64,000 bases of DNA from Paramagnetospirillum kuznetsovii (GTDB lineage: Bacteria > Pseudomonadota > Alphaproteobacteria > Rhodospirillales > Magnetospirillaceae). Of the stretch, positions 11,562-53,091 are shown one piece after another; the stretch's first letter is position 1, and each line of letters begins with the position of its first letter. Made by a program: the position numbers and the translations under genes. The stretch is from NCBI RefSeq assembly GCF_003284725.1, contig NZ_PGTO01000007.1:62001-126000 (forward strand), given 5' to 3'. Under the pieces are notes generated by a model. That model was given only the letters and a program-made list of their open reading frames with translations, was not told the origin of the DNA and ran no database searches.

Positions 11562-11601
11562 GCCCGGATCATCCCTTTGGTTGGAGTGAAGTCTGATCGC
11601 C

Positions 11602-12432
11602 TTAAGAGTAGCCGAACATCACCGGAAGATTTCTGGCGATCAGCGCCTCGAATTTTTCTGCCTGCCCCCCGGAGAGATGGGTCCGATATCCCCCAACTTC
11701 TCCCTTGCGAACATGGAAAGCATCGGGATTTGAACGATCACCAGGGCCGAAGACGGGAAGATTGGACGAGGGGTAGACGAGCTCTGCTCCACGGCTCTCC
11801 ATGTCCCTCATGTTGCGGAAGGATGCAAAGGACACCGCCTCATCAACCGCCGCCTGATGGGGGGACTCACCCAGGAAGGCCAGAATTTCCTTTAAAATTC
11901 TGCCGGGATCTTTGCGAGCATCCTCATAACGGCGCAGGTAAAAGCCGCGGAGGCCATGCTTATTTTCCGCCCATATGGAGTAGAATCTTATGAGTTTTTC
12001 AAGACCAAAAACATCATCATTAATAAAATCCACGAGATCCCCTTTAAAACTTCCGACTTGGTGCTTCATCTGCATGTAGTGCGAGACGAGAGTGTCAAGC
12101 GGATGGCGAACCATGAGGATAACCTTCAGTTCGCGAAAGGGATCGACTACGGATTCGGCACTTAAATCGTTAGCCGCCTGACTATTCCAAGTCAGGGGAG
12201 CATGGGTAAATCCGCCAACAAAATTCGGTGCGGTTCGACAAGCTTGACGCACTCTGTCGATGTCATCAAAAAAAACAAGTTGCTCATTGCGAGATATGAT
12301 CTGCACATATTTAGCGAGCTCGAATTGGAACCATGTCGTTCCAGTTTTTGGGTAGGAGATGGCCGAAAATACGGGAGAAGGTAAATCCCGCTCTTTTTTT
12401 GAGCATAATTTATTGACAAATTGATGAAACAT
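11602..12432 (-). CDS. PAPS-dependent sulfotransferase
   Basis: This 276-residue protein carries the 5'-phosphosulfate loop YPKTGTTW at 27-34 and the 3'-phosphate motif RHPLDTLVSHY at 109-119 (Arg109, Ser117). Both are hallmarks of the sulfotransferase_1 family that moves sulfate from PAPS to a hydroxyl or amino group. The start is fixed by a strong ribosome site, GGGAGG, four bases before ATG 12432 and just past the wzt stop (12443). Position directly after the exporter genes suggests that the exported glycan, or its lipid carrier, is sulfated. The 5' half is clearly more AT-rich than its neighbours, which may mean separate acquisition. Confidence 0.88.
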   Translation of the reverse strand: MFHQFVNKLCSKKERDLPSPVFSAISYPKTGTTWFQFELAKYVQIISRNEQLVFFDDIDRVRQACRTAPNFVGGFTHAPLTWNSQAANDLSAESVVDPFRELKVILMVRHPLDTLVSHYMQMKHQVGSFKGDLVDFINDDVFGLEKLIRFYSIWAENKHGLRGFYLRRYEDARKDPGRILKEILAFLGESPHQAAVDEAVSFASFRNMRDMESRGAELVYPSSNLPVFGPGDRSNPDAFHVRKGEVGGYRTHLSGGQAEKFEALIARNLPVMFGYS

Positions 12433-12442
12433 AATTCCTCCC

Positions 12443-13759
12443 TTATTGTGGAGATGCGTATTTTTCAATAATTGACCAGTTGGATTGCTGAACGAAAACC
12501 CCGTGATTTCGATTGTGGCCAATCCCGGCCACATAGGATCCGACGCTGACGAAGATTCGTATGGCATCGGGCACCGTGTCCAAGGTCTCCATCACGCCAT
12601 CCCTGAAACGGCCGAAGTCGACCATGACGGAATAATAGCCACTGGTGAGACGGATCTCGGGGATGATGCACTCGATCATTCCCCTGCCCTCGACCAGCAA
12701 GGCCTGTCCGGTATGAGTGCTGTGAATGGTCATCGCCCGATCGGCGGTCATCTCGGAAAACAGTAGGGCAAAATAGCCGTCCGGCTCGATCCCATCATTA
12801 TGGTAGTCGATACGCACGCGCATGCCTTCACCGGTATGGAAGACGGCGGTCTCTCCCCCGTCCAGTCGGCTGAGGGCGATTGCCTGGATCACATAGCTGC
12901 GCGGGCGCTCGAAATTATCGCGGTCGGCCAGGTCGGCGTGGGTCGTCAGCTTCTCCTCGACGCTGGCGTCGCTGGCGTTCTCGTCAGTGGGCAAGGCGTA
13001 TACGAGCTGGCGGTAATGAATGGAGGCATCCCCGGAGGAGCCGTAGAAAAGCGGCGCCCCCTGATCCAACAGAAGCGCCTTGTCGCAGAAGCGTTCTATC
13101 GCCCAGGGACTATGGCTGACGAACAGTACGGTGCGACCGTCATGCAGAATGCGCTCCATCGCCTCGATACATTTCTTCTGGAAGCCGGCATCACCGACCG
13201 CCATCACCTCGTCCAGGATGAGGATCTCGGTCCGAAGATGGATGGCGACGGAAAAGGCTAGTCGAACATACATGCCGCTGGAATAATGCTTAACTGGAGT
13301 GTCGATGAACTTAGCGAGTTCGGCAAAGTCGACGATGGAATCGAACTGCCGCATCACCTCGGCACGCTTTATTCCCAGCAAGCTGCCGTTGAGGAAAACA
13401 TTTTCACGACCGGTCAGATCGGGATGGAATCCGGTTCCCACCTCAAGCAGCGACCCAATGGTGCCATAGAGGCGAGCCATGCCGACGGTCGGCTCCACGA
13501 CCCCTGCCAGCATCTTAAGCAGAGTGCTCTTTCCCGAGCCGTTGCGGCCGATGATGCCGAGCGCCTCGCCTTCATGGAGCGTGAAGGAGACGTCCTTGAG
13601 CGCCCAGTAGTCGGCGCCTGTCGTCTTCGCGCGTCGGAATGGGTTAGTGACGGCCCGCCACAGTGAGCCGCCAGCCACGTCGGACGGATCCTCGCCGACG
13701 CCGATATGGTATCGCTTGCCCAGCCCCTCAACGATTACCGCTGGCCGCCCACCTGTCAT
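12443..13759 (-). CDS. wzt: Polysaccharide ABC exporter ATPase with C-terminal binding domain (Wzt)
   Basis: This 438-residue ATPase has Walker A GRNGSGKS at 71-78, signature YSSGMYVRLAFSV at about 159-171, Walker B ILILDEV at 179-185 and the switch His at 216. The GTGFHPDLTGRENVFLNG segment is typical of Wzt/TagH-type exporters. Residues from about 260 to the end form an extra beta-rich domain. In O9a/O12-type systems this domain recognises the chain end, so export would be coupled to a terminal modification. ATG 13759 overlaps the wzm stop by 4 nt (ATGA), which fixes the start and implies translational coupling. Confidence 0.93.
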   Translation of the reverse strand: MTGGRPAVIVEGLGKRYHIGVGEDPSDVAGGSLWRAVTNPFRRAKTTGADYWALKDVSFTLHEGEALGIIGRNGSGKSTLLKMLAGVVEPTVGMARLYGTIGSLLEVGTGFHPDLTGRENVFLNGSLLGIKRAEVMRQFDSIVDFAELAKFIDTPVKHYSSGMYVRLAFSVAIHLRTEILILDEVMAVGDAGFQKKCIEAMERILHDGRTVLFVSHSPWAIERFCDKALLLDQGAPLFYGSSGDASIHYRQLVYALPTDENASDASVEEKLTTHADLADRDNFERPRSYVIQAIALSRLDGGETAVFHTGEGMRVRIDYHNDGIEPDGYFALLFSEMTADRAMTIHSTHTGQALLVEGRGMIECIIPEIRLTSGYYSVMVDFGRFRDGVMETLDTVPDAIRIFVSVGSYVAGIGHNRNHGVFVQQSNWSIIEKYASPQ

Positions 13760-14613
13760 TCGTAGTCTACCGTCTCTTGCTCGTGGCGGCGAAATACCAT
13801 CCAGCCGATGACCAGGGTGGTCAGGGCGATCATCCAGGCGGCGGTGAACTGCCAAGTGAATTCAACGGGCTTGCCCAGCAGCGACCAGCGCAGGCCCTCG
13901 ACCATCCAATAGGTCGGGTTGATCTGGTAGTATGGACGAAGCCAGTCGGGCACCAGTGATGGACTGTAGACAATCGGCGTCAAGTACATCCACACCTGCA
14001 ACCCCAGAGTGATGACATAGGTGATGTCGCGGAACCGGACGATCACCACCGCCGAGAGCATCCCGATGCCGAGCCCCAAGATCAGCCCCAGGATCAGGAA
14101 GGTCGGCAGCATGATAATTTGCGGCGTCAGCGAATAGCCGGACAGCAGCATTACCACCAGTAGCAAGAGCAGCATCATGCCGGTATCGACCAGGGTTTTG
14201 ATCACCGAAGCCAGAGGCAGCAGGATGCGGGGAAAATAGATCTTGGATATGAGGCCCATGTTCTCATGCAGGCTCTGCGAGCTGTCTTGGATGACGCGCG
14301 AGAAGAATGTCCATGGGAGCAGTGCCGATAGCACGAAAACCGGATAGGGGATTCCGTCCGACGGCAACCTGAACAACATGCCGAAGAACACGCTGATGAG
14401 GATCATCTGAGCCAGGGGTTCGAAAAGAACCCACAAGACACCCAGCGCCATTTGGCGATACCGCGGCCCCAGATTGCGCCAAACAAGGGTCAGAAACAAT
14501 TCGCGGTAAGCGAAGGCTTCCCTGATCCCCAATTCCCTGTGCACGGTTCGGCCAGCCGCAACGACCCGAACCGGTCTGTCATCAGTAGGGGCAAGGATGA
14601 CGGTACTCTTCAT
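13756..14613 (-). CDS. wzm: Polysaccharide ABC exporter permease (Wzm)
   Basis: This 285-residue membrane protein has about six hydrophobic helices and the ABC-2 family signature region. An amphipathic N-terminal part (FLTLVWRNLGPRYRQMALGVLWVLFEPL) comes first and ISKIYFPRILLPLASVIKTL lies mid-protein. With Wzt it forms the inner-membrane channel that exports undecaprenyl-linked polysaccharide. It is the first gene of the minus-strand run 14613-4720. The intergenic region to the divergent gene at 14838 must hold its promoter. Confidence 0.93.
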   Translation of the reverse strand: MKSTVILAPTDDRPVRVVAAGRTVHRELGIREAFAYRELFLTLVWRNLGPRYRQMALGVLWVLFEPLAQMILISVFFGMLFRLPSDGIPYPVFVLSALLPWTFFSRVIQDSSQSLHENMGLISKIYFPRILLPLASVIKTLVDTGMMLLLLLVVMLLSGYSLTPQIIMLPTFLILGLILGLGIGMLSAVVIVRFRDITYVITLGLQVWMYLTPIVYSPSLVPDWLRPYYQINPTYWMVEGLRWSLLGKPVEFTWQFTAAWMIALTTLVIGWMVFRRHEQETVDYE

Positions 14614-14837: not shown

Positions 14838-16886
14838 ATGTCCCCAATAAATTCAGGCACCATTACGAACACACAAGGCCGCGCTTGCCGTGGGCCGCTC
14901 TGGCTGGTTCGGAGCGAAATCGGGCAAGAATCGTGGGACGCTCTGATCCATGCGTCGCCCGATGGTGGAATGGACGGATTGTGGGCGTGGCAAGTCATGG
15001 TGTCCGACGTTACCGCGTGGCATGTCTTGGATCTCAGTTTCGGTGCGGTGGAGAACGGCGCCTTGGTTGCGGCGGTCCCGCTCTCTTTCAGTCCTGACGG
15101 CGGCTGCTTGGCTTCCCCTTGGTTTGGCGCGTCGGGACCGGTAATCGCGGAAGGGCTGCATTGGCGTCAACAACGACGTCTGCTCGTGGCCATCATGGAC
15201 CGGGTGCGCCAACTGGCTGCCGAGCATGGCGCCCGCTCTGTTGAATTTTCGCTTAGTCCGACATCACCCCGCTCCCTCGCCAATCGCTGGGGCATCAATC
15301 CACTCGCTGCGTTTGGGCTCAAGGACGTCTCGACACAATCACGGCTAATAGACCTCACATTAGGGGAAGCAGCTCTGTGGGAGGGTTTGTCCAAGGATTC
15401 CCGTTATCAGGTCCGGCGGGCGAGGGCAGCCGGATACACGGTAGAGCGTCGGCCGTGGGGCGAAATGCTGGACGACTACTACCGCACCCATGTTGAAACC
15501 TATCAACGCACCGGGGCTTCCCCCCATCCCAAAGCCTATTTTGACGGTGTGGCGCGCCTGATGGCGGCACAGGGCCGTGCGGAGCTTTGGGTCGGCCTAG
15601 CGGCGGGCAAAACGCCGGTAGCATTCCAGAATATTGCCCGTTTCGATGGCCGGTTTAAATATTGGACAGGGTGTTCGAGTGGCGAACATTTGGATTCGGG
15701 GGTCAATTATCTCCTTATGTGGTCGGCTATCGCGTCTGCTGCGACGGAAAATGGGCAGTGGTTCGAGATGGGGGAAACCTTCCCCGGCGAGGTGTCGAGC
15801 AAGAACGCCGGCCTGACGACCTTCAAGTCGAAATTTGGTGGCGAGGATCACCGGTCCTTCAAGGGAAGAATTGACTTTCCTCCTCCTGCCGAGGTGCCGA
15901 CGCCGAGGCCCGATGCGCCGATTTACACGCCTCCGCAGGAGAGTTGGGTCATGATCGCGACCGATTTCTTGCGGCTGGGTAAAAGAATCGTGGCGCGATC
16001 CGTGGGGCTTGGCCGGGCGTTACGTTGGCAGCGCAGGATGAGGCGACTGGCATCTTTGCTGCTGCATCCATTTCAGCTCGACGGATGTGGGCGGCCTGAA
16101 TGGACCAGCCCGGCAGATGCCGAAGCCGCTTTGCGGCGAACCTATTCGGCGGGGACAATCTATAAGGTCGATGACATTTGTGCGCTGCCAATCGGCTCGG
16201 GTATTTCATATTCGGATCGAGTGCTCGAGGCCAAATTGGATGCCGTGCGATCGTCGTGCTCGGGCGACGGTGTGGTGGTCGATCTGTGTTGCGCTACGGG
16301 CGCGCATCTTATGGCGCTGTCAGATCGGTTTCGTCGAGGAATCGGGATCGACTTCAGCGTGCCTTTCATCATCGACGCCGAGCGCCGTCGTCGGCAACAG
16401 GGCATCCAATCCGTGTCCTTCCTTGTGGGATCGGCCCGCGCCATTCCGATCACCTCCGGCAGTGTCGATACTGTCTATTGCTTGTCGGCCCTGTACCAGA
16501 TTCCGGAGGTTGAGGAGGTTTTCGTCGAAGTGTCGCGGATCCTGGCGCCGGGTGGCCGGTTCGTCGTCGAAATCGGCATAGCGCCCAGCCTCAACCAGAT
16601 GGTTTGCGCTGCCCAGCCGAACCTCCCCCAACTCCATCTGCTGACCTTGCCCGCCGCGTTGGCCATGCTGCGCCGACTGGGCCTGTCGGTGGCGACACAC
16701 CGAAGCTTCCAGCTTTTACCCATGTGGGGGGATCGCCCCAAATGGCTGAAGCCTTTGCTTTCCCAGCCGGTTGTCCGTTTTCTGATGCGCGATATCAATG
16801 GCCGGATGCTTGAAGAGCGTCTTGCCAGCCTTCCTGGACTGAAATATTTCGCGTTCCGACACCTGATTGTCTGCGTCAAGTCATAG
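14838..16886 (+). CDS. Fusion: FemAB-like acyltransferase plus SAM methyltransferase
   Basis: This 682-residue protein has two domains. Residues 1-350 are a FemAB/GNAT-like acyltransferase: DSRYQVRRARAAGY at 187-200, FKYWTGCSSGEHLDSGVNYLL around 273-293 and GLTTFKSKFGGE at 325-336 are the usual landmarks. From about 400 a class I methyltransferase follows, with motif I VVVDLCCATG at 479-488, GIDFSVPF at 503-510 and VDTVYCLSALYQIP at 543-556. FemAB relatives transfer aminoacyl or acyl groups; XrtA-type glycan loci often contain one. The fusion suggests two modifications on one substrate. It is a single gene, with the minus-strand wzm upstream and a convergent gene 18 bases downstream. The start ATG has only a weak ribosome site. 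Confidence 0.8.
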   Translation: MSPINSGTITNTQGRACRGPLWLVRSEIGQESWDALIHASPDGGMDGLWAWQVMVSDVTAWHVLDLSFGAVENGALVAAVPLSFSPDGGCLASPWFGASGPVIAEGLHWRQQRRLLVAIMDRVRQLAAEHGARSVEFSLSPTSPRSLANRWGINPLAAFGLKDVSTQSRLIDLTLGEAALWEGLSKDSRYQVRRARAAGYTVERRPWGEMLDDYYRTHVETYQRTGASPHPKAYFDGVARLMAAQGRAELWVGLAAGKTPVAFQNIARFDGRFKYWTGCSSGEHLDSGVNYLLMWSAIASAATENGQWFEMGETFPGEVSSKNAGLTTFKSKFGGEDHRSFKGRIDFPPPAEVPTPRPDAPIYTPPQESWVMIATDFLRLGKRIVARSVGLGRALRWQRRMRRLASLLLHPFQLDGCGRPEWTSPADAEAALRRTYSAGTIYKVDDICALPIGSGISYSDRVLEAKLDAVRSSCSGDGVVVDLCCATGAHLMALSDRFRRGIGIDFSVPFIIDAERRRRQQGIQSVSFLVGSARAIPITSGSVDTVYCLSALYQIPEVEEVFVEVSRILAPGGRFVVEIGIAPSLNQMVCAAQPNLPQLHLLTLPAALAMLRRLGLSVATHRSFQLLPMWGDRPKWLKPLLSQPVVRFLMRDINGRMLEERLASLPGLKYFAFRHLIVCVKS

Positions 16887-19138: not shown

Positions 19139-20572
19139 ATGTCCATAGAAGTTTTATTGGTATATCTCCCGACAAAATTCGGTAGCGGCAAGTCGTATGG
19201 ATTGCCCCCATTGGGAATTTTCTATATGGCTGCAAACTTGAACCGCCGAGGTATTTCTGCCCGGGTTCTTGATGCCAGCATCAAGGGGCTGAGTCTTGAG
19301 AATACCCTTGCACAGATCAAGGCGCTGAACCCCAAGGTTCTCGGGTTCAGCGTTCTCACGGCCCACCTGGAAAGCTTCGTCACGATCCTTAATCATCTCA
19401 AGACCAACGCTTGGCCGGGTTTCATCGTTGCTGGTGGCGCTCATTTTAACGACACCCGTGATGAGTTATTCGAATATGCCGACATTGATTACGCCATGTA
19501 CGGCGAATGTGACGAAGCCTTCCCTATCTTGGTGAAAAGTCTACTGGGAGGCGGGGGCGTAGATCAGGTTCCGAATCTGATCTATCGCAAGGAAGGGGGG
19601 GTGGCAATTAATCCGGCCTTGCCCTTCCTGGGTGAACTGGATGACCTGCCATTTCCCAATCTTGCCGATGGCTTGTATCGTGACTACGCCATGATTTATG
19701 GGCGCCGTTCGCACGCGATGAGCATCATGTGCAGTCGGGGATGCCCATATCTATGCACATTCTGCGATGTTCACTCGATATGGGGGCGGAAGGTGAGGAG
19801 TAGGAGCCCTAATAATGTTGTTAACGAGATACAATTTAATATAAATACATATGGAATACGGGAATTTTTTTTTAGAGATAGCACATTCACCTTAAATTTT
19901 AAATGGGTTAACTCTCTTATGGAGGAAATTGAGCGACGTGGTCTCGATTTCGTTTGGCATTGCAATGCGAGAGTCGATCGGATTGATGAGACACTTTTAA
20001 ACCGAATGAAGCGCAATGGCTTGGTTTGCATTTCATATGGCGTGGAGTCGGGCAATCAGGCCGTGCTTGATCGGATGAAGAAGGATGTTAAGGTGGAAGA
20101 GATCGTTGCGGCATTCGAGCTGACCGACAAGATCGGACTTCAAGCCAACGCATTCCTGATGATCGGCAATCCGGGTGACAGTCCCGAGACCGTCGCCGAT
20201 ACCATGGATCTTGCCCTCCGCATCCCTGCCACCTTCATCGATGTCGGTCCCACCGTGGCCTATCCCGGGACCGAGACTTATTCCGTCGCCGTGGCCGAAA
20301 ATCTGATTGCCGATCCCAAGTGGTATCTCAAGGACGGATTTTTGGGGCGGCGGGTGAAGGGGGTTATTTCCGACGCCAGCAGGGGGCAGCTCAATATTCC
20401 CGGGTTCTCTCCCGAGGCTCAGTGCAAAGCTTGCCGCCAAATCGCCAGTTCCTTCTATTTCCGGCCCATCGCGGTTTGGCGGATCTTGTTCAAGAACTTC
20501 AATGTCTGGGTGTTCTGGCGGTCATTGAAATTCTTGCCGGCGTTTCTTGGTTTCGTACGTGCTCCGCGCTAG
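19139..20572 (+). CDS. B12-binding domain radical SAM protein
   Basis: This 477-residue protein has an N-terminal cobalamin-binding-type Rossmann region (FGSGKSYGLPPLGIFYMAAN, then VLGFSVLTAH and FIVAGGAHF). The radical SAM cluster motif follows, C202xxxC206xxC209. The family includes class B methylases and other enzymes acting on lipids and sugars; the substrate here is unknown. The segment 19790-19990 is markedly AT-rich and contains a nine-T run (19865-19873) in frame. A paralogue-like enzyme lies at 28600-30168. No strong ribosome site is visible before ATG 19139. Confidence 0.85.
   Translation: MSIEVLLVYLPTKFGSGKSYGLPPLGIFYMAANLNRRGISARVLDASIKGLSLENTLAQIKALNPKVLGFSVLTAHLESFVTILNHLKTNAWPGFIVAGGAHFNDTRDELFEYADIDYAMYGECDEAFPILVKSLLGGGGVDQVPNLIYRKEGGVAINPALPFLGELDDLPFPNLADGLYRDYAMIYGRRSHAMSIMCSRGCPYLCTFCDVHSIWGRKVRSRSPNNVVNEIQFNINTYGIREFFFRDSTFTLNFKWVNSLMEEIERRGLDFVWHCNARVDRIDETLLNRMKRNGLVCISYGVESGNQAVLDRMKKDVKVEEIVAAFELTDKIGLQANAFLMIGNPGDSPETVADTMDLALRIPATFIDVGPTVAYPGTETYSVAVAENLIADPKWYLKDGFLGRRVKGVISDASRGQLNIPGFSPEAQCKACRQIASSFYFRPIAVWRILFKNFNVWVFWRSLKFLPAFLGFVRAPR
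19865..19873 (+). repeat. Nine-T homopolymer tract inside radical SAM gene
   Basis: Nine T residues encode three Phe codons in REFFFRDS. The tract lies within a locally AT-rich 200-base patch of an otherwise GC-rich gene and is a possible slippage site. Confidence 0.4.
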
Positions 20573-20949: not shown

Positions 20950-21468
20950 ATGGTGGGCCGTCCGCTATTCCAATTCATTTGCGCTATCGTGGCGTTTCTC
21001 GGTGTTCTGGCCCTATTCGGGATGACCGGCGTCGCGGCGGGCTCTGAGCCATCGGCGACCGACGACTTGAGCCGTACCACGAGGGAGTGGCTGGCCAACA
21101 TCCCGGATTACGAATTACGATTTTTTGAACGCCTGAAACAGGTCGAAGGCGTTAGCGAGATACAAACCATTATTCTTCTCGTCGCGGTCGTCGCCCTGCT
21201 GCTGCTCGGGGGTACCGTCATCATGTTTTTTCGGACGCTCGAGCGCCGCATCGCCGCATTGCCAGGGGCTCGCCCTCAGTCACGTCTGAGCAGGAAAATT
21301 CGCCTACTTTTTGTCATGTGGCGCCAGAAGAGACTAGAGGATCAATTCTCGAGAATTGCAGCAATTCAAGAAAAATATCCAGACATTACGCCACAGGTGT
21401 CGAACTTTCGTGTGGAACTTAATGAAATTTCCGTTGAAATTGAACGCGCACGCCAGCGAAAATTCTAA
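20950..21468 (+). CDS. Small two-TM protein with PDY module and coiled tail
   Basis: This 172-residue protein has a TM or signal segment at about 8-30 and a short periplasmic stretch with EWLANIPDY (W47, PDY 52-54). A second TM helix follows at 71-94, then a basic, probably coiled-coil cytoplasmic tail (95-172) with MWRQKRLE. The same PDY-TM-tail arrangement ends both SGNH proteins downstream and the membrane protein at 34897. This protein looks like one of the SGNH partners with its catalytic domain removed. ATG 20950 has AAGGA 8 bases upstream; the longer frame from 20761 runs through a repeat and is not the start. MBOAT begins 14 bases later, so the two are probably co-translated. I do not recognise a named family. 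Confidence 0.75.
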   Translation: MVGRPLFQFICAIVAFLGVLALFGMTGVAAGSEPSATDDLSRTTREWLANIPDYELRFFERLKQVEGVSEIQTIILLVAVVALLLLGGTVIMFFRTLERRIAALPGARPQSRLSRKIRLLFVMWRQKRLEDQFSRIAAIQEKYPDITPQVSNFRVELNEISVEIERARQRKF

Positions 21469-21482
21469 GAGAGTCCGGCAAT

Positions 21483-23033
21483 ATGCTGTTTAATTCCTAT
21501 GAGTTTCTTATTGGATTCCTTCCACTTTGCCTTGCCCTGACTTGTGCCGCCCGCCGGTTTGGGCGGCTGCCGGCACTTTCGATCCTGGTTCTGGTGTCCC
21601 TTGGCTTCTATGCGTTGTGGGAAGCTCAATACATCTTGCTATTGCTTTCATCAATATTTTTCAATTATTTGATGGGAAATCTGGTCCACGCCACCCGCCT
21701 CCGCGCCGTGGTCTTGAGCGGCGTCTTAGTCAATCTGGCGATCCTGGGCTATTTCAAGTACCGAATCTTCTTCGGAGAACTGTCTGGTTTGCACTCAGCA
21801 GAAGCTCTGGTGGTTCCGTTGGGAATTTCATTTTACACCTTCCACCAGATTAGCTTTCTGATTGATGTCAATCGCAAGAATATCTCGCCCAGAGGCTTTT
21901 CCGAATACCTCCTCTACGTCACGTTCTTTCCCCAATTGATCGCCGGCCCCATTGTCCGATTCACTGAAGTCATTGGGCAGTTTAAGACAGCCTCGGCTTT
22001 CACCCCGCGCGCCATCAATTTTGCCGTCGGATTTACCATGATAGCCGCGGGCCTGTTCAAGAAGCAGATCCTCGCTGATACCTTCGCAGGCTATGCTCGG
22101 CCGGTCTTCGCGCTGGCGGAAACCTCGGCCTCGGTAACCATGATCGAATCCTGGACCGGCATCCTGGCCTATACGCTGCAAATCTATTTTGATTTTTCGG
22201 GTTACTCGGACATGGCCCTGGGCATCGCCCGAATTTTTGGCATTCGCTTGCCAGTAAATTTCAACTCTCCTTACAAGGCGACCAGCATCATAGACTTCTG
22301 GCGGCGCTGGCATATTTCGCTATCACGCTTTCTGCGCGACTACCTGTATGTTGTCATCGGCGGAAATCGCGGCGGCAGGATCAGACGCTATATCAATGTC
22401 ATGATCGTGATGCTGCTCGGTGGTCTGTGGCATGGAGCTGACTGGACTTTTGTTCTGTGGGGCGGCATGCATGGTGGCATGCTTTTGATTAACCATGCTT
22501 GGCGCGACCTAGGCGGCGGCAAGGCACGCCACCTGCGTATCCCACCGGCCTTTGCTTGGTTCATCACCTTTTTGGGGGTGATGCTGGCCTGGACCCTATT
22601 CCGAGCCGAGAGCGTCCATGGCGCGCTCAATCTCTGGCAAGGCATGCTTGGCATCAATGGGCGCATGGCCCTGCATGACGTCGATAAGCAGACTCTTGGC
22701 GACCTGGGTCCGATCCTGGAAGCCATCGGGTTTCATTGGATCAATGCCGAGCAGGTGTCCCGCGCCTTTCCCACTCAAACGACGTTCCTCTGGTTCGCAG
22801 CAGGTCTGTTCATTTGCCTGGGGCTTCCCAATACCCAAGCGTGGTTGCGTCGTTATCGTCCGGCTTGTAGCCTTGTCTATGGCGACCTTGATGCGCGCAG
22901 CGTCGCGGATTTCGTCTCAATCTCCCTAAGGTGGCGTCCGACCGTACCATGGGCATTGCTCACGGCGGCCATGCTGATCTACGCCATCTTTCATTTCGGA
23001 AATACCAGCGAATTCATATATTGGCAATTTTAG
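21483..23033 (+). CDS. MBOAT-family O-acyltransferase (AlgI/DltB-like)
   Basis: This 516-residue protein has about ten membrane helices. The MBOAT signature is MLLGGLWHGADWTFVLWGGMHGG, with the proposed catalytic His317 and a second His330. PLGISFYTFHQISFLID and the SGYSDMALGIARIFGI region are also typical of AlgI-type proteins. The family moves acyl groups from the cytoplasm across the membrane for O-acetylation of polysaccharides, usually with an SGNH partner (AlgJ/X, DltD, PatB). Such partners are encoded downstream at 23454 and 25058. A remnant of a further partner follows the stop codon directly. Confidence 0.92.
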   Translation: MLFNSYEFLIGFLPLCLALTCAARRFGRLPALSILVLVSLGFYALWEAQYILLLLSSIFFNYLMGNLVHATRLRAVVLSGVLVNLAILGYFKYRIFFGELSGLHSAEALVVPLGISFYTFHQISFLIDVNRKNISPRGFSEYLLYVTFFPQLIAGPIVRFTEVIGQFKTASAFTPRAINFAVGFTMIAAGLFKKQILADTFAGYARPVFALAETSASVTMIESWTGILAYTLQIYFDFSGYSDMALGIARIFGIRLPVNFNSPYKATSIIDFWRRWHISLSRFLRDYLYVVIGGNRGGRIRRYINVMIVMLLGGLWHGADWTFVLWGGMHGGMLLINHAWRDLGGGKARHLRIPPAFAWFITFLGVMLAWTLFRAESVHGALNLWQGMLGINGRMALHDVDKQTLGDLGPILEAIGFHWINAEQVSRAFPTQTTFLWFAAGLFICLGLPNTQAWLRRYRPACSLVYGDLDARSVADFVSISLRWRPTVPWALLTAAMLIYAIFHFGNTSEFIYWQF

Positions 23034-23453: not shown

Positions 23454-23454
23454 A
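23155..23454 (+). mobile_element. IS256-family transposase fragment
   Basis: From ATG 23155 the frame begins MTKAGSALNELMKKLGDGDF and continues AETLSQLVMEIDVESLIG, the usual N-terminus of IS256 (Mutator-type) transposases. Similarity fades after ERNDERQ, and the DDE catalytic core is absent. The frame stops in a TGATG overlap with the next gene. This is an inactive scar whose arrival probably truncated the third SGNH paralogue. Confidence 0.65.
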
Positions 23455-25061
23455 TGCCCTCCATCCGCCGCTTCCTCGTCGTGGCAGTCGCGTTTCCGCT
23501 CGTACTGATCACTGCCGTCGCCGCTGGCAATCTCGTTTTCATGGCGCGGCTCAGGGAACTGTGGAGCGCTGACAGGGTCGTCGAAGTTTGGTCAAGAGGA
23601 AATATTCTGTTCAACCCCATCAATATAGAGGATGTGCGCCCACGCATTGTCCGCGCCCTTGATCCCGATGTCATGGTCCTAGGGTCATCGCGCTCCTTTA
23701 ATGTCCACGACTATGCTTTCCGAAGGTCATTCTTTAACCTCGGGGGGTGGCTGACGCGCTCGACCGCATTCGATGTGGGGAGTTTTCAGGCAGTCCCCCG
23801 GAAGGTCTTGAAGTATGGGCGCCCCCGCTATCTCTTTTTCTTCCTGGACTATTGGTGGGTCATGACCTCGCCTGAGGCCAAGACTCAGATATCGTCCAAT
23901 GAAAGTCGTCAATCCCTCCAACAGGACATCTATGAGCGCCTTCCGTCCGCCGTCCGCCAAATCCTCAAGGCCTCGGTACTGCCCTCGACATTCTTGAGCG
24001 CGGGCCATTTAACGCTACGTCAGTATTTTGACGTGCTGCGAGGACGGGGTGGCTATGCCGACGATATAGTCAGGATCGGCTATGTCGCCAACCTAAATGA
24101 AATCGGCTTTGGACCTGACGGAGCCTATTATGGCCTGCGGCTGCGTGCAGCCGACCAAGCCGGACGAATCTGCGACCTCGGGGATTTGTCCAACCGCAAG
24201 CGCTTGCCTCACGGCGCCTATCGCCCTGGTCAGCAGTTGGATCCGCTAAAGGTCGCGGCGCTGAAATCCATGCTGACGGAATTGGAAGCAAGCAGTATAC
24301 GTGTGATCCCCATCCTACCTCCCCTCGCCCCCAGCGTGGTGACGCGCTATCAGTCAGATCCCGATTACGCGTTTGTGGACGAATGGCGAAACACCATGAA
24401 GCAGATGCTTCCTGGCGTCTGGGACTTTCACGATTCCCGTGCATTGGGCTCCACCGACTGCGAATTTCACGACGATATTCACGGCGGCGACGTTACCTAT
24501 CTGCGAATCCTAGAACGGATGGGGCTCGAGAGTGACGAAATCAGGCAGTTGCTGAACACCGGTAACATCACGGCTGCGATCCGTCAATTTTCCGGCCGAC
24601 GATTGGTTACCGGCTATGGCCTGCTATCTCGACTCGCCCCCTTACCGGTGACCCACCCCCCACTTCCGCCGCAGCAACGCACTCAAGCTTCGTCCGGACA
24701 GAAATGGACTCATGAAAGCGTCATGGCCGACAGACTTGCCGCCAACAAGGATTTCTTGGATGGCATGCCGGATTACCGCAAATATATATATGACCTACTA
24801 GCGAACATCAAAAAACATTCCTTCCAAGGGTACGGAGTTTCTCTGGCAGCAGTCGGCATTTCCCTGGCCCTGCTGGTCAGCGTGGGGTGGTTTTGTCTTG
24901 GAATTCTCCGCCGCCTACCGTTGGCAATGCCCAGTGCCCACATGGACGAAGACCTCATCCAGACGGCTCGTCGTCAAGGGATGGCGTTTGAAGCACTTCG
25001 CCGATTGCGCCATCGCGCAATATTGTCCTCATGCCTGCCGCCCAGCCATCCGTCGCCATGA
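23454..25061 (+). CDS. SGNH-type acyltransferase partner protein 1 with PDY module
   Basis: This 535-residue protein has a TM anchor at about 8-28 and a periplasmic SGNH-like domain. VMVLGSSRSFN has the GSS nucleophile element at 77-79, and DDIHGGD carries Asp341 and His343. LDYWW (131-135) and GPDGAYYGLRLR are shared with its paralogue. A Pro-rich linker (about 395-410) leads to FLDGMPDY (PDY 439-441), a TM helix at 464-482 and a short basic tail. It probably works with MBOAT to acylate a glycan in the periplasm, as AlgJ/AlgX or DltD do. The start overlaps the preceding relic stop (TGATG). Confidence 0.75.
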   Translation: MPSIRRFLVVAVAFPLVLITAVAAGNLVFMARLRELWSADRVVEVWSRGNILFNPINIEDVRPRIVRALDPDVMVLGSSRSFNVHDYAFRRSFFNLGGWLTRSTAFDVGSFQAVPRKVLKYGRPRYLFFFLDYWWVMTSPEAKTQISSNESRQSLQQDIYERLPSAVRQILKASVLPSTFLSAGHLTLRQYFDVLRGRGGYADDIVRIGYVANLNEIGFGPDGAYYGLRLRAADQAGRICDLGDLSNRKRLPHGAYRPGQQLDPLKVAALKSMLTELEASSIRVIPILPPLAPSVVTRYQSDPDYAFVDEWRNTMKQMLPGVWDFHDSRALGSTDCEFHDDIHGGDVTYLRILERMGLESDEIRQLLNTGNITAAIRQFSGRRLVTGYGLLSRLAPLPVTHPPLPPQQRTQASSGQKWTHESVMADRLAANKDFLDGMPDYRKYIYDLLANIKKHSFQGYGVSLAAVGISLALLVSVGWFCLGILRRLPLAMPSAHMDEDLIQTARRQGMAFEALRRLRHRAILSSCLPPSHPSP

Positions 25062-26635
25062 ACGCTATCCCAAAGTACCTGCTGCTGGTTATCGCCATCC
25101 CGGCTCTTGCCTTGGCTGCTGCGACCACATGCAATTTGCTGGTCATGGCACGGGTCAATGAATTGTGGAGCAAGGATGATATCCTGAGGGAGTGGGATCG
25201 TGGAAACATGCTGGTCAGCGCCTTGATAGCTCCCTATCCCAGGGAAGAAATCAGCAGGAAAATTGCACCCGAAATTACCGTTCTGGGGTCGTCGCGCTCA
25301 TTCAATCTGCACGATTTCGCCTTCAGCCGCTCGTTCTTCAACCTAACCGGACGGTTTGGAACGGTCGGAATCGTCAAATCCTTTCAAGGCGCGCCGCAGC
25401 TGCTTGCGGAACATGGCAATCCCCGCTACGTGTTCATCTTCCTAGACTACTGGTGGTTTATGACCCCCACCACCGACAAGGGTGGAGACGGGGCTGTCAT
25501 GACACGCCGCAATCAAGGCAACCCCCTTTGGGGGGCGCTTCCGCAACGCCTGCGCCAGATTCTGAGTGCCGCGACACTCCCCACCACGTTGCTGCGACAG
25601 GGCTTGCTCAGCATTGGGAATTACCGGGCGGCCCTGGGCGGTCAGCTTCACGGACAAGATGGCATCCGGCGGGTCGGTTTGACTGCCTATACAACTGATA
25701 CCGGGATTGGGCCGGATGGCGCGTATTATGGATTGCGACTGCGCGAGGGTGACTATCCCGGCAAGAGTTGCCTCTATGTGAATGATCTTGAAGCCCGTCG
25801 ACGCCTTCCCCATGGAGCCTATCAGCCCGGTCAGCGCATCGATCCGGCTCGCATGGCGGCGGCCAGGGAAATGATTCACCGCCTTGAGGTTGCCGGCATA
25901 CGAACTATTACCATCATTCCACCCTTGGCGCCCAGCATGGCTGCGCTTTACCGCTCCGATTCCGACTACGCGTATATCGATCAGTGGAGGAATCTCGCAA
26001 AGGCCGAATTCGGCAAGATCTGGGATTTTCACGACCCTCGCGATCTGGAGTCGGGAGAGTGCGAGTTCATGGATGACATCCATGGCGGCGATGTCACCTA
26101 TTTGCGGATTCTTGATCACATCGGCAAAGAAGACGCTGATGTAAAGTCAATCCTCAACGCAGACCTGGTTTCAAGTCTTATCAAGGAGTTTGAAGGCAGG
26201 AACTTCGTCACCAGCCGGGGCTTATGGACCTTCCTTCCCCCCTTGCCGCCGCCTCTGTCCAAGGCGCCTCCTGACGGGGTCACCGTATCCCCACCAACGG
26301 CGCCACCGAGACCAAGAACGATCGAGACCATGCGAGCCGAACGGCGCGAGGTCAATGATACCTTCCTAGCGGACATGCCGGATTATCCCAAGCGGGTTTA
26401 CGACATTGTGGCCACCGTCAAACGCACCATGTTCCAGGGATGGAGGCTTGGCCTAGCTCTAACGGCAAGTGCCTTGTTTCTGGCGGCGATGTTTGCCCTT
26501 TGGCTCCTTCGGATAAGACGCTCCCTGCCGGCCCCATCTCAGCGAGACGCCTTCAACGACAATGATTTAGCTCAGTTGAGCCGTCGTCAGAAACTGCTGG
26601 TGGCGGAGATCAAGAGCTTGTCCGCCCATCGCTAG
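25058..26635 (+). CDS. SGNH-type acyltransferase partner protein 2 with PDY module
   Basis: This 525-residue paralogue of the preceding gene has the same layout. An N-terminal TM is followed by ELWSKDD, GSSR at 77-80, LDYWW at 129-133, DDIHGGD (Asp340, His342), a long Pro-rich linker (393-418), PDY at 441-443, TM 463-483 and a basic tail. ATG 25058 overlaps the stop of partner 1 by 4 nt, which fixes the start and shows coupling. Its 3' end overlaps the convergent wecB gene by 26 nt. Two retained partners suggest different acceptor sites or a hetero-complex. Confidence 0.75.
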   Translation: MNAIPKYLLLVIAIPALALAAATTCNLLVMARVNELWSKDDILREWDRGNMLVSALIAPYPREEISRKIAPEITVLGSSRSFNLHDFAFSRSFFNLTGRFGTVGIVKSFQGAPQLLAEHGNPRYVFIFLDYWWFMTPTTDKGGDGAVMTRRNQGNPLWGALPQRLRQILSAATLPTTLLRQGLLSIGNYRAALGGQLHGQDGIRRVGLTAYTTDTGIGPDGAYYGLRLREGDYPGKSCLYVNDLEARRRLPHGAYQPGQRIDPARMAAAREMIHRLEVAGIRTITIIPPLAPSMAALYRSDSDYAYIDQWRNLAKAEFGKIWDFHDPRDLESGECEFMDDIHGGDVTYLRILDHIGKEDADVKSILNADLVSSLIKEFEGRNFVTSRGLWTFLPPLPPPLSKAPPDGVTVSPPTAPPRPRTIETMRAERREVNDTFLADMPDYPKRVYDIVATVKRTMFQGWRLGLALTASALFLAAMFALWLLRIRRSLPAPSQRDAFNDNDLAQLSRRQKLLVAEIKSLSAHR

Positions 26636-27728: not shown

Positions 27729-28603
27729 GATGAATTTCGATCAGAGCGGGCGTTGATCTGGCTCGTCTGGTCCGCCAATAATCCCAAGGAGAACACCACC
27801 ACCCCGGCAACCGCCGCGACCGCCGCCGCCAACAAGGCTGTTCCGCTACCGGTCCATAATCCGACCACCCCACAAAGAGCGCCGAATATCAGCGTCAGAC
27901 AGCTCAACAGAAGGAACAGCTTCAGAGGATTGTAGTAGGTGATCGCGGAGACAATATACTGCATTGTCCGCAAAGAATCTCGAAGCAGTCGAACCTTGGT
28001 GGCTCCGATCCGGTGGTGATACTCGATCTCCACGTAGAGAACCGTCCGCTTCCGCAGCATGTAAGCCAAGGTCGAGGACGTCGTGAAACTGAAGCTATCC
28101 GAAAGATTTGGAAAGAACGGTGAAATCCCGTCCCTTGAGAAAACCCGAAGTCCTGAATTCGGGTCCGGAATTGACCTCCCCGCGGTGAATTCCACCAGAC
28201 CCTTCAAAATAGCGCGCAGCGGCGCCTTGATGGCGCTTTCGCGATACCGCTCTCCGGTTCGGGCGCCAACCACCATATCCCACCCCTCCCGATAACGACT
28301 CACCAGATTGGGAATCTGGGTGATCGGATAGGTTCCGTCGGCATCCGTAATGACAATGGTGTCATGCTTGGCGGCGGCAACCCCACGCTTAAGGGAAAAG
28401 CCATAGCCAAGATTCTCGAGGTTCCGCAGCACCATCGCCCCGGCGTCCATCGCGAGCGCGCCTGTGCCGTCGGTGGAGCCATCATCAACCACAATGATCT
28501 CCACGTCGGAAAAATCCGCCTGCGCCAAAGTCGAGCGGATCGAAGTCACTGTGTCATGGATGGCGTCCCGTTCATTAAACGCCGGAATAATGACGCTGAT
28601 CAC
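27725..28603 (-). CDS. GT2 glycosyltransferase with C-terminal TM helices
   Basis: This protein of about 292 residues begins with SVIIPAFNERDAIHDTV and has VDDGSTDGT and TDADGTYPI as the GT-A nucleotide-binding elements. Two C-terminal membrane helices follow (about 230-280). This matches polyprenyl-phosphate sugar transferases such as GtrB/DPM1, which make undecaprenyl-P-sugar donors for GT-C enzymes. The start is a GTG; 28603 forms a GTGA overlap with the radical SAM stop, and 28606 is an alternative GTG. It is clearly related to the GT2 at 42507-43439 (shared TDADGTYP and IPDxNSGxR). Confidence 0.88.
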   Translation of the reverse strand: MISVIIPAFNERDAIHDTVTSIRSTLAQADFSDVEIIVVDDGSTDGTGALAMDAGAMVLRNLENLGYGFSLKRGVAAAKHDTIVITDADGTYPITQIPNLVSRYREGWDMVVGARTGERYRESAIKAPLRAILKGLVEFTAGRSIPDPNSGLRVFSRDGISPFFPNLSDSFSFTTSSTLAYMLRKRTVLYVEIEYHHRIGATKVRLLRDSLRTMQYIVSAITYYNPLKLFLLLSCLTLIFGALCGVVGLWTGSGTALLAAAVAAVAGVVVFSLGLLADQTSQINARSDRNSS

Positions 28604-30168
28604 CACTCTACCTCTTCAATGCCTGGGTCCGCCATGATCGCTGCGACCGACTTGTGGACAACTGGATAGCTGGCTGGCCGGGGAGGGTTAGCCTGATAAT
28701 TCCAAACCGGCCAGCGGTCGCGGGCATAATAAACGGATGCTAACGCCTTGCCGACGGACGGCATGAAGAAAAAATTCAAGGCATAGTACAAATCCCAGAA
28801 GAACTCCCCGGTCCGCACGCCCCTGACGATACGTCGAAAGATGAAGCCTGGATTTTGAAGAATGCACTTTCTATAGGCAATGTCCAAGTATTTTTTAATA
28901 GCATCGGAAGACAGGTGCCGATGAACAAACAAATTCTTATCTGTATAAATAAAATACTCATCCCAGTCATATGACTTTACGAGCCCATCCGAAACATAAT
29001 CATCGAACATTTTTGTTCCAGGAAAGGCTATGGATAGGCCGAATTTCATCATATCTACGGGAATTTGGCGGGCGAAATCGATAGTTTCTCGCATGGTCTG
29101 CTCGGTATCGGGAGACAGGCCCAGCAGAAAAAAACCATTGGTGTCGATCCCAGCCCGCCGTGCCATGGTCACGGCGGCTTTGCCTTGCTCGATCGAGGCC
29201 CGGCCGCCCTTGCCGAATTGGGCCAGAACCTCATTGTTACCAGATTCAAACCCGAAGGACACACGGTAGCAGCCCGCCCGGCGCATGATGCGAAACAGAT
29301 CCTCGTCGGCGCTTTCCACCCGGATACCGTTGGTACAGGTCCAGGCCATATCGACGCCGGTCGCAATGATCGCCTCGCACACCGCCCGCGCCCATTTCTG
29401 GTCGGAGGTGAAAATATCATCGGCCAGCATGAATTCGCGAAAGCCGAGGTCATGCATGTGCTTGACTTCGGCGGCGCAGCGTTCGGGGCTCTTCTTGCGA
29501 TACCCCTTGGCCATCGTGATCTTGGAGGCGCAGAAATCACAGGTAAAAACACAACCGCGCGAGAACTCCGCCATGGTAACAGGCGGACAGCGCGCCAATA
29601 GCCGTGACATTCGCCGATAGTCCTCTACCGGATAGAGATCCCAGGCCGGCATGGGCAGGGTGTCCAAATCGCCGATGGGTGGTGGCCGTGGTGTTATACA
29701 AACCCTGTCGCCTTGGCGAAAGCACAGGCCAGGGATGTCTTCGAGACGGCTGCCGTCGCAATAATCGGCGAAGGATAGATCGGCCTCGCCGACAAAAACA
29801 GCGTCGCAACGTGTCTCCATAATGGTCTCGAACGGCATAGCCGAGGGATGGGCGCCACCCGCCACAACGCGGGTTCCGGGCGCGAGATCCTTGATCAGCA
29901 CTGACATGTCGCGCAACTGGTTCATCAAGGCCGTGGTGGCGGTAATTCCAACGATCTCGGGCCGGAAGGACTCGAGCCGCTGCTGCACCGCGCGATGATC
30001 GTACACCCGCCAAGACAGATCCAGAATTTGGACCTCATGGCCACGATTGCGTGCCGTCGCGGCAATTGTCGCCAACCCAAGAGTCGGATGAATGGGATTG
30101 ACGATGGACGCTTTCGCCCCGCCATAGCTCAACGTGTAGGAGGGATTGATCAGTAGAACGCGCGCCAT
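28600..30168 (-). CDS. B12-binding domain radical SAM protein
   Basis: This 522-residue protein has an N-terminal B12-type domain (RVLLINPSYTLSYG, then HPTLGLATIAA and VVAGGAHPSAMP). The cluster motif CVFTCDFC is at 206-213. LPMPAWDLYP between the domains is typical of the group. Possible roles are methylation or rearrangement of a sugar or lipid carrier. ATG 30168 was chosen because the upstream ATGs (30183, 30198) lead into sequence without family character; no ribosome site is convincing. It is coupled to the following GT2 and follows the membrane protein by 58 bases. Confidence 0.85.
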   Translation of the reverse strand: MARVLLINPSYTLSYGGAKASIVNPIHPTLGLATIAATARNRGHEVQILDLSWRVYDHRAVQQRLESFRPEIVGITATTALMNQLRDMSVLIKDLAPGTRVVAGGAHPSAMPFETIMETRCDAVFVGEADLSFADYCDGSRLEDIPGLCFRQGDRVCITPRPPPIGDLDTLPMPAWDLYPVEDYRRMSRLLARCPPVTMAEFSRGCVFTCDFCASKITMAKGYRKKSPERCAAEVKHMHDLGFREFMLADDIFTSDQKWARAVCEAIIATGVDMAWTCTNGIRVESADEDLFRIMRRAGCYRVSFGFESGNNEVLAQFGKGGRASIEQGKAAVTMARRAGIDTNGFFLLGLSPDTEQTMRETIDFARQIPVDMMKFGLSIAFPGTKMFDDYVSDGLVKSYDWDEYFIYTDKNLFVHRHLSSDAIKKYLDIAYRKCILQNPGFIFRRIVRGVRTGEFFWDLYYALNFFFMPSVGKALASVYYARDRWPVWNYQANPPRPASYPVVHKSVAAIMADPGIEEVEW

Positions 30169-30226
30169 CGCTGGATATGCCATGCCTGTGACTGCCACGG
30201 ACCATGACGGCTAGCCAAGCCACCCG

Positions 30227-34896: not shown

Positions 34897-37155
34897 CTAC
34901 AAGGCCTTCGCCAGCCGCTCCATGTCGTCTCGGATCTCCCGAAGCTCTGCGAGAATCGTTTTCAGGTCATCGCCATCCAATTCCCCCATTGACGTTTCCA
35001 TGAGGCGGAGTTTGGCCTCTATGCGCCTTGCACGCCATGCAAGGCTTGATCGTCGCCCGATTCGGGTCGCCAGATCTCGTACTCGTCTCCACGGCGAGGA
35101 TGTCCGCCGCGCGGACCGATCCGCACTTTCCGGCTTGCGTTGGGAGAACCACCATGTCGAACCGATGATCGCCAGCAGGAGGACAACAAACTGTAGCCAT
35201 TGCGTCCGTTCTAGCGAGACCTGCCGATTTTTGATTAGCTGAACTCTATCGTACAGGCGATGCTCATAGTCTGGGATCGAGTCAAGCCACTCCTTATTCT
35301 CCTGCCGCCTTTCGTCCAGTTGCTTTGTCTGTGCCGCTTTTTCGGGTGCGGACAAGACAGAACCGGACGAATTGAATTTCCGGATATCGCCTGTGGCTAG
35401 CAATGTTGGCGCGGCGCGGCCATCCTTCGCCGGGCCAAGGCCGAGGGTAGCGCGCAGGCACATCATGGAGGGATTGAAGTAATGGGGATAGAAAGCGCTT
35501 CCCATGGCCCAGCTCTCAATGGTCTGAACCCGGGAAAAATCCACGGGAGCATGTCGGCCACTGGGAACCTCCACGGTCATGAAATGCTCAAGCGCCTCCT
35601 GTGCCTTTTCCAAGCCAACGGCACCATCCCCCATATAGAATTCAAGGGTCCGCTTACCGTTATAGCTATAGTCGTCGACCCGGTGCGTCCGACCCGGATC
35701 ATAGGGTAGCGTGTGCCACCCCAAGCCCTTGCGATCGAGGACATCGACCCTGTCGAATGGCCGATGCTTGAGCTTGAAATGCTCAAAATACACCTCGGTA
35801 GCGAGATAGTGCCACCACTCCACCGCCCAGACGAAGGCGATAACCGTATCCTTGTCGGGAGAAACGATCATGTCCCGTGTGGCCGCAATCGGAACCGCCA
35901 TACAGGCGCGAAGCGCCTGATGTCGCCAGAAATTGATTGCCGGCAGCATTCCGCCGAACAGCGGAGAGTAGGTTCGCCCGCCATTCATATTGATCGACAT
36001 GCGTTCGAACCAGTTGTCCGAATTACCGCGACCGCTCGTCAACCAAGGCCCCAGCGGATTGAACACCAACAATACGGCCGCGACGATGAAAATTTTTCGG
36101 CCATGCCGTGACGCCCGTGTCAGACAGGCGATGGTGAACGGTATGGCCTCGGCGGTCATTACCATCAGGAATGGTGCAATGTAGATGACATACCGCGGCT
36201 GACAGATGGCGTTCCAATACCCATACACATAGACCGCCACGGGAACCACCGGCCATAGGCGCATCCAGCCCCAGCGCGACCGGCGAACCTCACCCAGGAT
36301 AAAACCGGCGTAAAATGGAAGCAGCAGAATCCACCCGATGGAAAATGTCTTCAGCCATGTATCAAGACGATATTCCCCAGGAATGATAAGTGAAGCGCCT
36401 TCGTCCAAGGTTTGCGCGATCAATTCCAGCGGTGTCACCTTGTAAGGCAGACAGACCAGATACAAGGCGCCATAGATCAAGGGGAAGTAGGACACGGCTC
36501 CGATCAAGGCACGCCGCAGCCTCGGGTCGCTCAATAATTCGCGCCAGCCGCCCCATCCTTGACCGCCAGTCAAGCGTGGCCAGACCGCGGCTACAGTTAT
36601 CGTGAGCGGCAGCGCCCCGATTATGGGCAGGGCGTCACCTCGGTACAAAATGGCCAGGGCCGCGGACAGCGCGGCCACGGGCAAAAGCCAAACGGACCGC
36701 AATGCCAATTCGAGGGCTACCAGAAAAAGAAGGAAGGCTGGCGCCGTATCGCTGGGGATCTCCAGAGAGACGAGCCAAGCCGGAGCGGCGAAAGAATACA
36801 GCAGAAAACGTAGCGGAGTAATGGCATGAAATCGACGCACGAAGAGGTAGATTAGCCATAAGGAAGGGACAGCGCAGAAAATGGTCATCAGCCGTTGAAC
36901 CGGAAACGGGGCCATTTGCAGCCACTGGGACAACAGGGCAATAGTTTGGACCATGAACTGCCGCTTTCCCAGGATCATGGGAACGGTGGCGTGGTCAATA
37001 ACTGCTGCGGCTTCGGTCTCGAAAGTATCTCCCGCCCAAATATACAGAAATGGCAGTAAGATATAGGCAAGCAAGACCCATAGGCCGAGCCGGCTCAGCG
37101 TTTCCGCAGACAATCGCCGCGTCATCAGCATCAAGGAATCAACCTTTCCAGACAT
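34897..37155 (-). CDS. Large polytopic membrane protein with C-terminal PDY module
   Basis: This 752-residue protein has about ten hydrophobic helices in residues 20-360, which suggests a GT-C-like membrane enzyme. LYRGDALPIIGALPLTI and YWNAICQPRYVIYIAPFL are landmark segments. A soluble region (about 370-620) follows, then EWLDSIPDY (PDY 628-630), a TM helix at about 653-670 and an 80-residue basic coiled tail with AWRARRIEAKLRLME. The PDY part and tail closely match the small protein at 20950, although the rest is unrelated. ATG 37155 has no strong ribosome site. It is the second gene of a membrane pair with the SGNH fusion upstream. Confidence 0.7.
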   Translation of the reverse strand: MSGKVDSLMLMTRRLSAETLSRLGLWVLLAYILLPFLYIWAGDTFETEAAAVIDHATVPMILGKRQFMVQTIALLSQWLQMAPFPVQRLMTIFCAVPSLWLIYLFVRRFHAITPLRFLLYSFAAPAWLVSLEIPSDTAPAFLLFLVALELALRSVWLLPVAALSAALAILYRGDALPIIGALPLTITVAAVWPRLTGGQGWGGWRELLSDPRLRRALIGAVSYFPLIYGALYLVCLPYKVTPLELIAQTLDEGASLIIPGEYRLDTWLKTFSIGWILLLPFYAGFILGEVRRSRWGWMRLWPVVPVAVYVYGYWNAICQPRYVIYIAPFLMVMTAEAIPFTIACLTRASRHGRKIFIVAAVLLVFNPLGPWLTSGRGNSDNWFERMSINMNGGRTYSPLFGGMLPAINFWRHQALRACMAVPIAATRDMIVSPDKDTVIAFVWAVEWWHYLATEVYFEHFKLKHRPFDRVDVLDRKGLGWHTLPYDPGRTHRVDDYSYNGKRTLEFYMGDGAVGLEKAQEALEHFMTVEVPSGRHAPVDFSRVQTIESWAMGSAFYPHYFNPSMMCLRATLGLGPAKDGRAAPTLLATGDIRKFNSSGSVLSAPEKAAQTKQLDERRQENKEWLDSIPDYEHRLYDRVQLIKNRQVSLERTQWLQFVVLLLAIIGSTWWFSQRKPESADRSARRTSSPWRRVRDLATRIGRRSSLAWRARRIEAKLRLMETSMGELDGDDLKTILAELREIRDDMERLAKAL

Positions 37156-53086: not shown

Positions 53087-53091
53087 AGCCC

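Follow-up and report, generated by a model that had tools for sequence, protein, structure and literature searches.

An unnamed Pro-Asp-Tyr membrane module in surface-glycan loci of Rhodospirillales: a putative adaptor for glycan-tailoring complexes

How periplasmic tailoring enzymes are tethered near a growing or exported polymer has been worked out for few systems, e.g., Dlt and alginate. A 64,000-nt stretch of the Paramagnetospirillum kuznetsovii genome (hereafter, the window) raises this question anew. A preliminary description of the window noted four proteins, with differing large domains or none, that share a short pattern around Pro-Asp-Tyr (PDY) ahead of a transmembrane (TM) helix (Table 1). 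Is this pattern a homologous module, where else does it occur, and what might it do?

Table 1. Features of the window, and B12-binding radical SAM proteins near module genes.
Feature	Position	Strand	Remarks
ABC exporter, O-antigen type	12443..14613	-	Wzt 12443-13855, PF00005 + PF14524; Wzm 13756-14613, PF01061
Standalone module protein, 172 aa	20950..21468	+	N-terminus resembling a signal peptide, short PDY-containing outer stretch, single TM helix, helical basic tail (predicted)
PDY of standalone protein	21103..21111	+	residues 52-54; break between two predicted helices
TM helix of standalone protein	21169..21225	+	residues 74-92; mean hydropathy 3.01
MBOAT acyltransferase	21483..23033	+	14 nt after standalone gene; PF03062, E 7.4e-31
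SGNH (DltD-like) protein 1 with C-terminal module	23454..25061	+	
Module of SGNH protein 1	24723..24914	+	PDY 24768-24776, residues 439-441
SGNH (DltD-like) protein 2 with C-terminal module	25058..26635	+	start overlaps SGNH protein 1 stop
Module of SGNH protein 2	26333..26524	+	PDY 26378-26386, residues 441-443
Polytopic GT-C-like protein, 752 aa	34897..37155	-	8 hydrophobic segments before module TM; C-terminal outer domain and C-terminal module
Module of GT-C-like protein	35134..35319	-	PDY 35274-35266, residues 628-630
B12-binding radical SAM proteins	window 19139-20572, 28600-30198; L032:6264-8117; L034:7790-9343; L060:5020-6510; L062:3932-5851		Pfam on five of six

A homologous membrane module

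The four segments lie where the pattern had been reported and are homologous. They form a module of about 60 residues that reads [WF]-x3-[IM]-P-D-Y-x2-R-L-Y-D-R-V, followed by 14–25 residues, a TM helix, and a net-basic tail. In total, 14 copies were found across seven genomes. Among these, the P was conserved in 14, D in 13, Y in 12, W or F in 14, R(+5) in 13, and Y(+7) in 12, and the distance from PDY to the start of the TM helix was 14–25 residues in every copy. The tails of the 13 copies without an enzyme domain behind them measured 20–170 aa. The orientation of the module is predicted from hydropathy and charge only.

The AlphaFold2 model of the standalone protein (mean pLDDT 70, pTM 0.30, about 61 around PDY) placed a helix at residues 38–49, a break at 50–53, and a helix at 54–103 that includes the membrane segment; two further helices lie in the tail. 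The model of SGNH protein 2, built from a two-row alignment, was poor (mean pLDDT 46) and at this low confidence put a helix, a break, and a helix at the module (422–439, 443–489). The models thus agree, with moderate and low confidence, respectively, on a helix, a break at PDY, and a long helix through the membrane. An amphipathic stalk was also considered and was rejected, as the amphipathicity of the helix after PDY was not significant in a permutation test (profile moment reached by 2034 of 20,000 permutations). The free proteins start with a signal-peptide-like stretch, and their predicted mature outer part is little more than the module.

Homology was assessed with BLAST and with profiles. 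The standalone and 34897 proteins aligned over 138 residues (E = 1e-7), and the 34897 and 25058 proteins aligned within the module (E = 1e-4); BLAST gave no significant alignment between the standalone and 23454 proteins. The two window SGNH proteins are paralogs (43% identity) and were therefore counted once. A likeness between the long tails of the 20950 and 34897 proteins (MWRQKRLE versus AWRARRIE), also pointed out in the preliminary description, was not significant taken alone, and tail homology by itself was rejected. A profile of the four window proteins recovered those four from the whole host genome (E 1.8e-31 to 1.7e-22) plus one further place (E 0.215) that was dropped before counts; profile searches detected no further copy in this genome.

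The tripeptide PDY as such is not rare in the window (5 observed versus 1.9 expected, 49 ORFs). An independent test used the f197 profile, which was made solely from three free module proteins that belong to another family in the order (G473, G476) and had themselves been reached via profiles starting from the window proteins. These three proteins share W-R-x2-I-P-D-Y-E-K-R-L-Y-D-R-V-K. With this profile, the four window module proteins ranked 1–4 among 921 stop-to-stop ORFs of the window (E 1.6e-10, 3.8e-5, 0.018, and 0.14; next ORF 9.2), and four module proteins were recovered among 144 ORFs of G067 (E 7e-10 to 3.6e-5). After removal of the TM helix from the profile, three of the four window proteins still scored below 0.01 (the fourth 3.9), as did two of the four in G067 (the others 0.023 and 0.071), and the reversed-ORF control of this core profile gave no match. 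A chance pattern was rejected on the basis of the independent profile, the reversed-sequence control, and the rarity of the module in wide genome samples; as the profile ranking indicates, the pattern exceeds what chance yields near TM helices.

The expectation that no named domain would cover the module also held. Searches of Pfam, NCBIfam, and PDB sequences gave no match above curated cut-offs. The best Pfam matches were far below them (LemA, E 0.026, on the tail; Herpes_US9, E 0.0074, in one of 14 modules), and the best PDB-sequence match (E 0.12) involved the TM part only. Neither DltX nor AlgF families surfaced in the Pfam and NCBIfam scans of the module, and no family above cut-off was found there for the whole standalone protein. 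Among open PMC papers, no description of the module was found under the PDY motif or scaffold terms.

Distribution and attachment to carriers

Clear module matches (E ≤ 1.3e-7) were obtained in seven of 317 genomes of the order: the host genome (G000), G002, and G012, all of one genus; G067 and G074 of a second genus of the family; and G473 and G476 of another family. At E ≤ 0.01, 17 of the 317 matched, and the ten with E 0.001–0.01 (G071, G625, G626, G575, G491, G069, G013, G005, G631, and G048) were left out of the counts. The module was found in four of 55 genomes of the family sample, two of 48 of the family of G473, the own genome only of 385 of the class sample, and the own genome plus one weak match of 398 of the phylum sample; these samples overlap, include several incomplete genomes, and were searched with profiles of differing depth that scored limited first-look candidates per genome (15–19), such that distant copies may be missed. 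The weak phylum match (G932, E 8.6e-4, profile positions 22–59), which has no PDY core and did not show up on translation of the place, was dropped before counts, as were four places with E 0.0016–0.0053 (profile positions 38–99). The module is rare. With the standalone protein as query, a first scan of genome contigs found no relative and searches of plasmids and phages found no match; a plasmid search with the GT-C-like protein was likewise without match.

The architecture varied. The module was detected as a free protein (once in the window, twice in G067, where one copy has PHF for PDY, twice in G473, and once in G476), at the C-terminus of DltD-like SGNH proteins (twice in the window, once in G067), at the C-terminus of GT-C-like enzymes (window, G002, G067, and G074), and, in G012, N-terminal to a GDSL-like domain (f197 profile E 1.8e-9; the GDSL match itself is below the Pfam cut-off). 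Reuse on differing domains (none, SGNH, polytopic enzyme), as originally proposed, is thus confirmed and extends to an N-terminal position.

In sorting signals such as PEP-CTERM or LPXTG, only a few residues separate the motif from a C-terminal TM helix, behind which comes a short basic tail. The module has a motif, a TM helix, and a basic tail in the same order on several unrelated proteins, and we considered whether it might likewise be a C-terminal signal for sorting or processing, with cleavage by a dedicated protease. The module departs from these signals in spacing (14–25 residues between motif and TM helix), in tail length (up to 170 aa), in the G012 case, where the GDSL-like domain lies behind the module, and in having a polytopic enzyme as one carrier. 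We regard a sorting signal as very unlikely and rejected it because of the spacing, the tail length, and the N-terminal module of G012.

The SGNH carriers bear on the attachment of the module. We take a GxS block near the N-terminus and a DxxH block near the C-terminus to be SGNH/DltD-like blocks, and both are present in the 23454 and 25058 proteins; the family alignment has GSSRS in module-bearing rows, GSSRA in G002, and D-x2-H near the C-terminus. Neither window protein matched Pfam, and DltD matched one of four SGNH family members weakly (E 0.19). In a Foldseek search with the low-confidence model of SGNH protein 2, the best match was DltD 6pfx (E 0.31), with none at E ≤ 0.001; we treat this match as a hint only. 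Of the 317 order genomes, 11 have this family, with 13 copies in total. The three module-bearing proteins form one clade (95/95) and none of the ten other homologues has the module, for which a single gain would be the simplest reading. A Pro-rich linker precedes the module in the SGNH proteins, and the two closest module-free homologues (the second G067 copy and the one in G002) stop where linker and module begin. In G012, residues 137–491 of the carrier are 60% identical to the next gene, which is without the carrier's first 136 residues, where the module lies. Judged by these alignments, the module is an optional appendage, and its module-free relatives end, or begin, about at the attachment point.

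At E ≤ 1e-10, four of the 317 order genomes have the GT-C-like family, with relatives of the window protein in G002, G067, and G074; four of its five copies carry the module. GT-C enzymes have many TM helices, and their first outer loop bears an acidic motif; acidic residues follow the first hydrophobic segment in all five aligned rows, with no invariant acidic motif. The window protein had no match among Pfam and PDB sequences. The GT-C-like tree is too weak for counting module gains. The module tree is also weak, with the SGNH modules together (0.92), three GT-C-like modules together (0.88), and the G067 GT-C-like module elsewhere.

The TM helix, the basic tail, and the Pro-rich linker before the SGNH modules would suit a plain membrane stalk or anchor, i.e., a homologous segment that has no specific partner and sets only the height and orientation of enzyme domains. 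This is unlikely as its purpose because membrane segments besides that of the module are present in the carriers (each of the three SGNH carriers has a hydrophobic segment at its N-terminus) and the free protein has no domain to anchor; conservation of the motif residue by residue also argues against it.

Gene neighbourhood

In the window, the standalone gene is followed after 14 nt by the MBOAT gene and then by the genes of SGNH proteins 1 and 2; the GT-C-like gene ends 8.3 kb on, on the opposite strand. The window also holds an O-antigen-type Wzm-Wzt exporter, glycosyltransferases, a sulfotransferase, and sugar-nucleotide enzymes, and therefore represents a surface-polysaccharide locus. The four module copies found in the host genome all lie in this one glycan locus, spanning 14.3 kb, and are not scattered. 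The arrangement recurs in the second genus: within 7 kb, G067 repeats a standalone gene, 11 nt, an MBOAT gene, an SGNH gene with module, and a GT-C-like gene with module, with a second standalone gene overlapping the end of the GT-C-like gene and the four copies within 6.9 kb. The G067 MBOAT is 67% identical to that of the window; for the remaining MBOATs in the 11 searched genomes, the identity is 40–53%. The clustering with MBOAT, SGNH, and GT-C-like genes thus holds in a second genus, but MBOAT and SGNH genes adjoin a module in only two of the seven genomes (stretches fetched). MBOAT genes were present in all 11 genomes tried, with or without modules, and their mere presence is therefore uninformative.

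Several other genes accompany the modules. B12-binding radical SAM proteins (Table 1) occur near module genes in five of the seven genomes; they and the sugar epimerases are common to more of these loci than any other family. Adjoining the window GT-C-like gene is a gene without module (37246-40026, minus strand); its 926-aa product has a GDSL lipase domain at the C-terminus, and its N-terminal half is hydrophobic and looks polytopic. A 591-aa hydrophobic protein without Pfam family (30227-32002, minus strand) has relatives near the G002 and G074 module loci. The window further contains five homologous asparagine-synthase-type genes (5976-7814, 9684-11561, 39972-41861, 48798-50723, and 53026-54939; Pfam on the first only) and a GNAT/FemAB-like domain fused to a methyltransferase domain (14838-16886, plus strand).

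The window MBOAT scored E 1.9e-51 against the DltB model TIGR04091, yet below that model's cut-off. It combines an MBOAT domain with a C-terminal FXYXXF and so fits the PatA type; its C-terminus is the acyl-shuttle motif FIYWQF, as is that of the G067 MBOAT. FXYXXF fitted 18 of 18 readable MBOAT C-termini (20 loci from 25 places, five places being without locus; two loci gave no ORF with the signature). The tyrosine of FXYXXF is acetylated in PatA, and the same role is reported for DltX, according to PMC12148441. The small standalone protein, with its predicted outer tyrosine, single TM helix, and position beside the MBOAT gene, could by this DltX precedent be a second acyl shuttle, its PDY tyrosine carrying acyl groups from MBOAT to SGNH. 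However, the tyrosine is replaced by L or F in two of 14 module copies, the C-terminus of the standalone protein is a basic tail that lacks FXYXXF, and the MBOAT carries a shuttle motif of its own. For this last reason, the small protein is unlikely to carry acyl groups in the manner of DltX; a shuttle role was rejected as the main reading and is, in our estimate, the least probable explanation considered here.

Exporter genes also occur beside modules. Wzm homologues, seen in three of the seven module genomes, adjoin two standalone genes in the other family: G473 and G476 each have one standalone gene directly upstream of Wzm-Wzt, and the second G473 copy is not so placed (the G476 Wzt was identified by 77% identity to that of G473). 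The G473 Wzt ATPase (L061:3025-5781), directly after the standalone and Wzm genes, has an extra C-terminal methyltransferase domain.

This proximity of Wzm-Wzt to two of three standalone genes in G473 and G476, and its presence in the window, bear on a further explanation, namely that the module is a tag recognized by one module-free partner, such as the Wzm exporter, a lipid-linked intermediate, or an unlinked receptor. Tagged enzymes would then be recruited singly, and the free protein would regulate or compete. G002 and G074, with a single module copy found in each, on the GT-C-like enzyme, favour such a tag as well. Conversely, the close grouping of four copies in each of two genera suggests that copies matter to each other, Wzm homologues were seen in three of seven genomes, and no family of neighbouring genes exceeded five of seven genomes (blastp E ≤ 1e-8, half of query covered, stretches searched). 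We consider the tag a possible but rather doubtful explanation.

A putative docking role

The reading we favour, and hold to be about evenly balanced between right and wrong, is that the module serves as an inner-membrane docking, or assembly, module of loci that make and decorate surface polysaccharides, a role also raised in the preliminary description. It is the best reading because of the residue-level conservation, the reuse on unrelated enzymes, the free form beside an MBOAT or exporter gene, and the clustering in two genera. The binding, the partners, the acyl transfer, and the polymer are inferred. The short periplasmic helix, the Pro-Asp-Tyr turn, and the long membrane-crossing helix would form a surface recognized by other members of the machine. 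The free protein, i.e., module, signal peptide, and cytoplasmic helical tail, would act as an adaptor without enzyme domain, and the modules fused to DltD-like SGNH and GT-C-like enzymes would draw the attached catalytic domains into the same complex. The MBOAT would load the tyrosine of its own C-terminus (FIYWQF) with acyl groups, which docked SGNH enzymes would hand on to the polymer. The single-copy genomes G002 and G074 do not fit an obligatory module–module complex; in these two, the module would therefore self-associate or bind something without a module, and its partner may not be another module.

The nearest functional parallels may be DltX and AlgF. According to PMC12148441, one complex unites DltX with the two proteins that it binds, an MBOAT of the DltB type and an SGNH protein of the DltD type. 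Likewise, the standalone protein is a small single-TM protein encoded alongside a DltB-type MBOAT and DltD-type SGNH proteins. Unlike DltX, it is predicted in the opposite orientation (outer N-side, cytoplasmic tail) and has no FXYXXF; the shuttle motif is on the window MBOAT, and enzymes, too, carry the module as a fusion. AlgF is described in PMC10641220 as a non-enzymatic mediator of contacts among the alginate acetylation proteins, an MBOAT/SGNH system, and as composed of two beta-sandwich domains. A similar mediating role is proposed for the module, which in contrast is predicted to be all-helical and membrane-spanning. As in PatA-PatB and other MBOAT-SGNH pairs, an MBOAT with C-terminal FXYXXF stands with a separate SGNH transferase, whereas PatB has at most one N-terminal TM anchor (both from PMC12148441) and the window SGNH proteins add a C-terminal module and TM helix.

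More tentatively, some Rhodospirillales may organize their whole inner-membrane glycan-tailoring assemblies through a plug-in module of this kind. Acyltransferases and a lipid-sugar-dependent glycosyltransferase would be clipped together, and in further lineages joined to an O-antigen ABC exporter, by a single helix-turn-TM unit, reusable and also present as a free adaptor. If so, a module that occurs free, C-terminally, or N-terminally and was added in evolution would give a direct handle on the membership of one machine, and would be a simple element for test or reuse. Tandem GT-C-like paralogs in G002 (L035:8435-10069 and 10083-12104), one with and one without the module, form a natural pair for studying its role.
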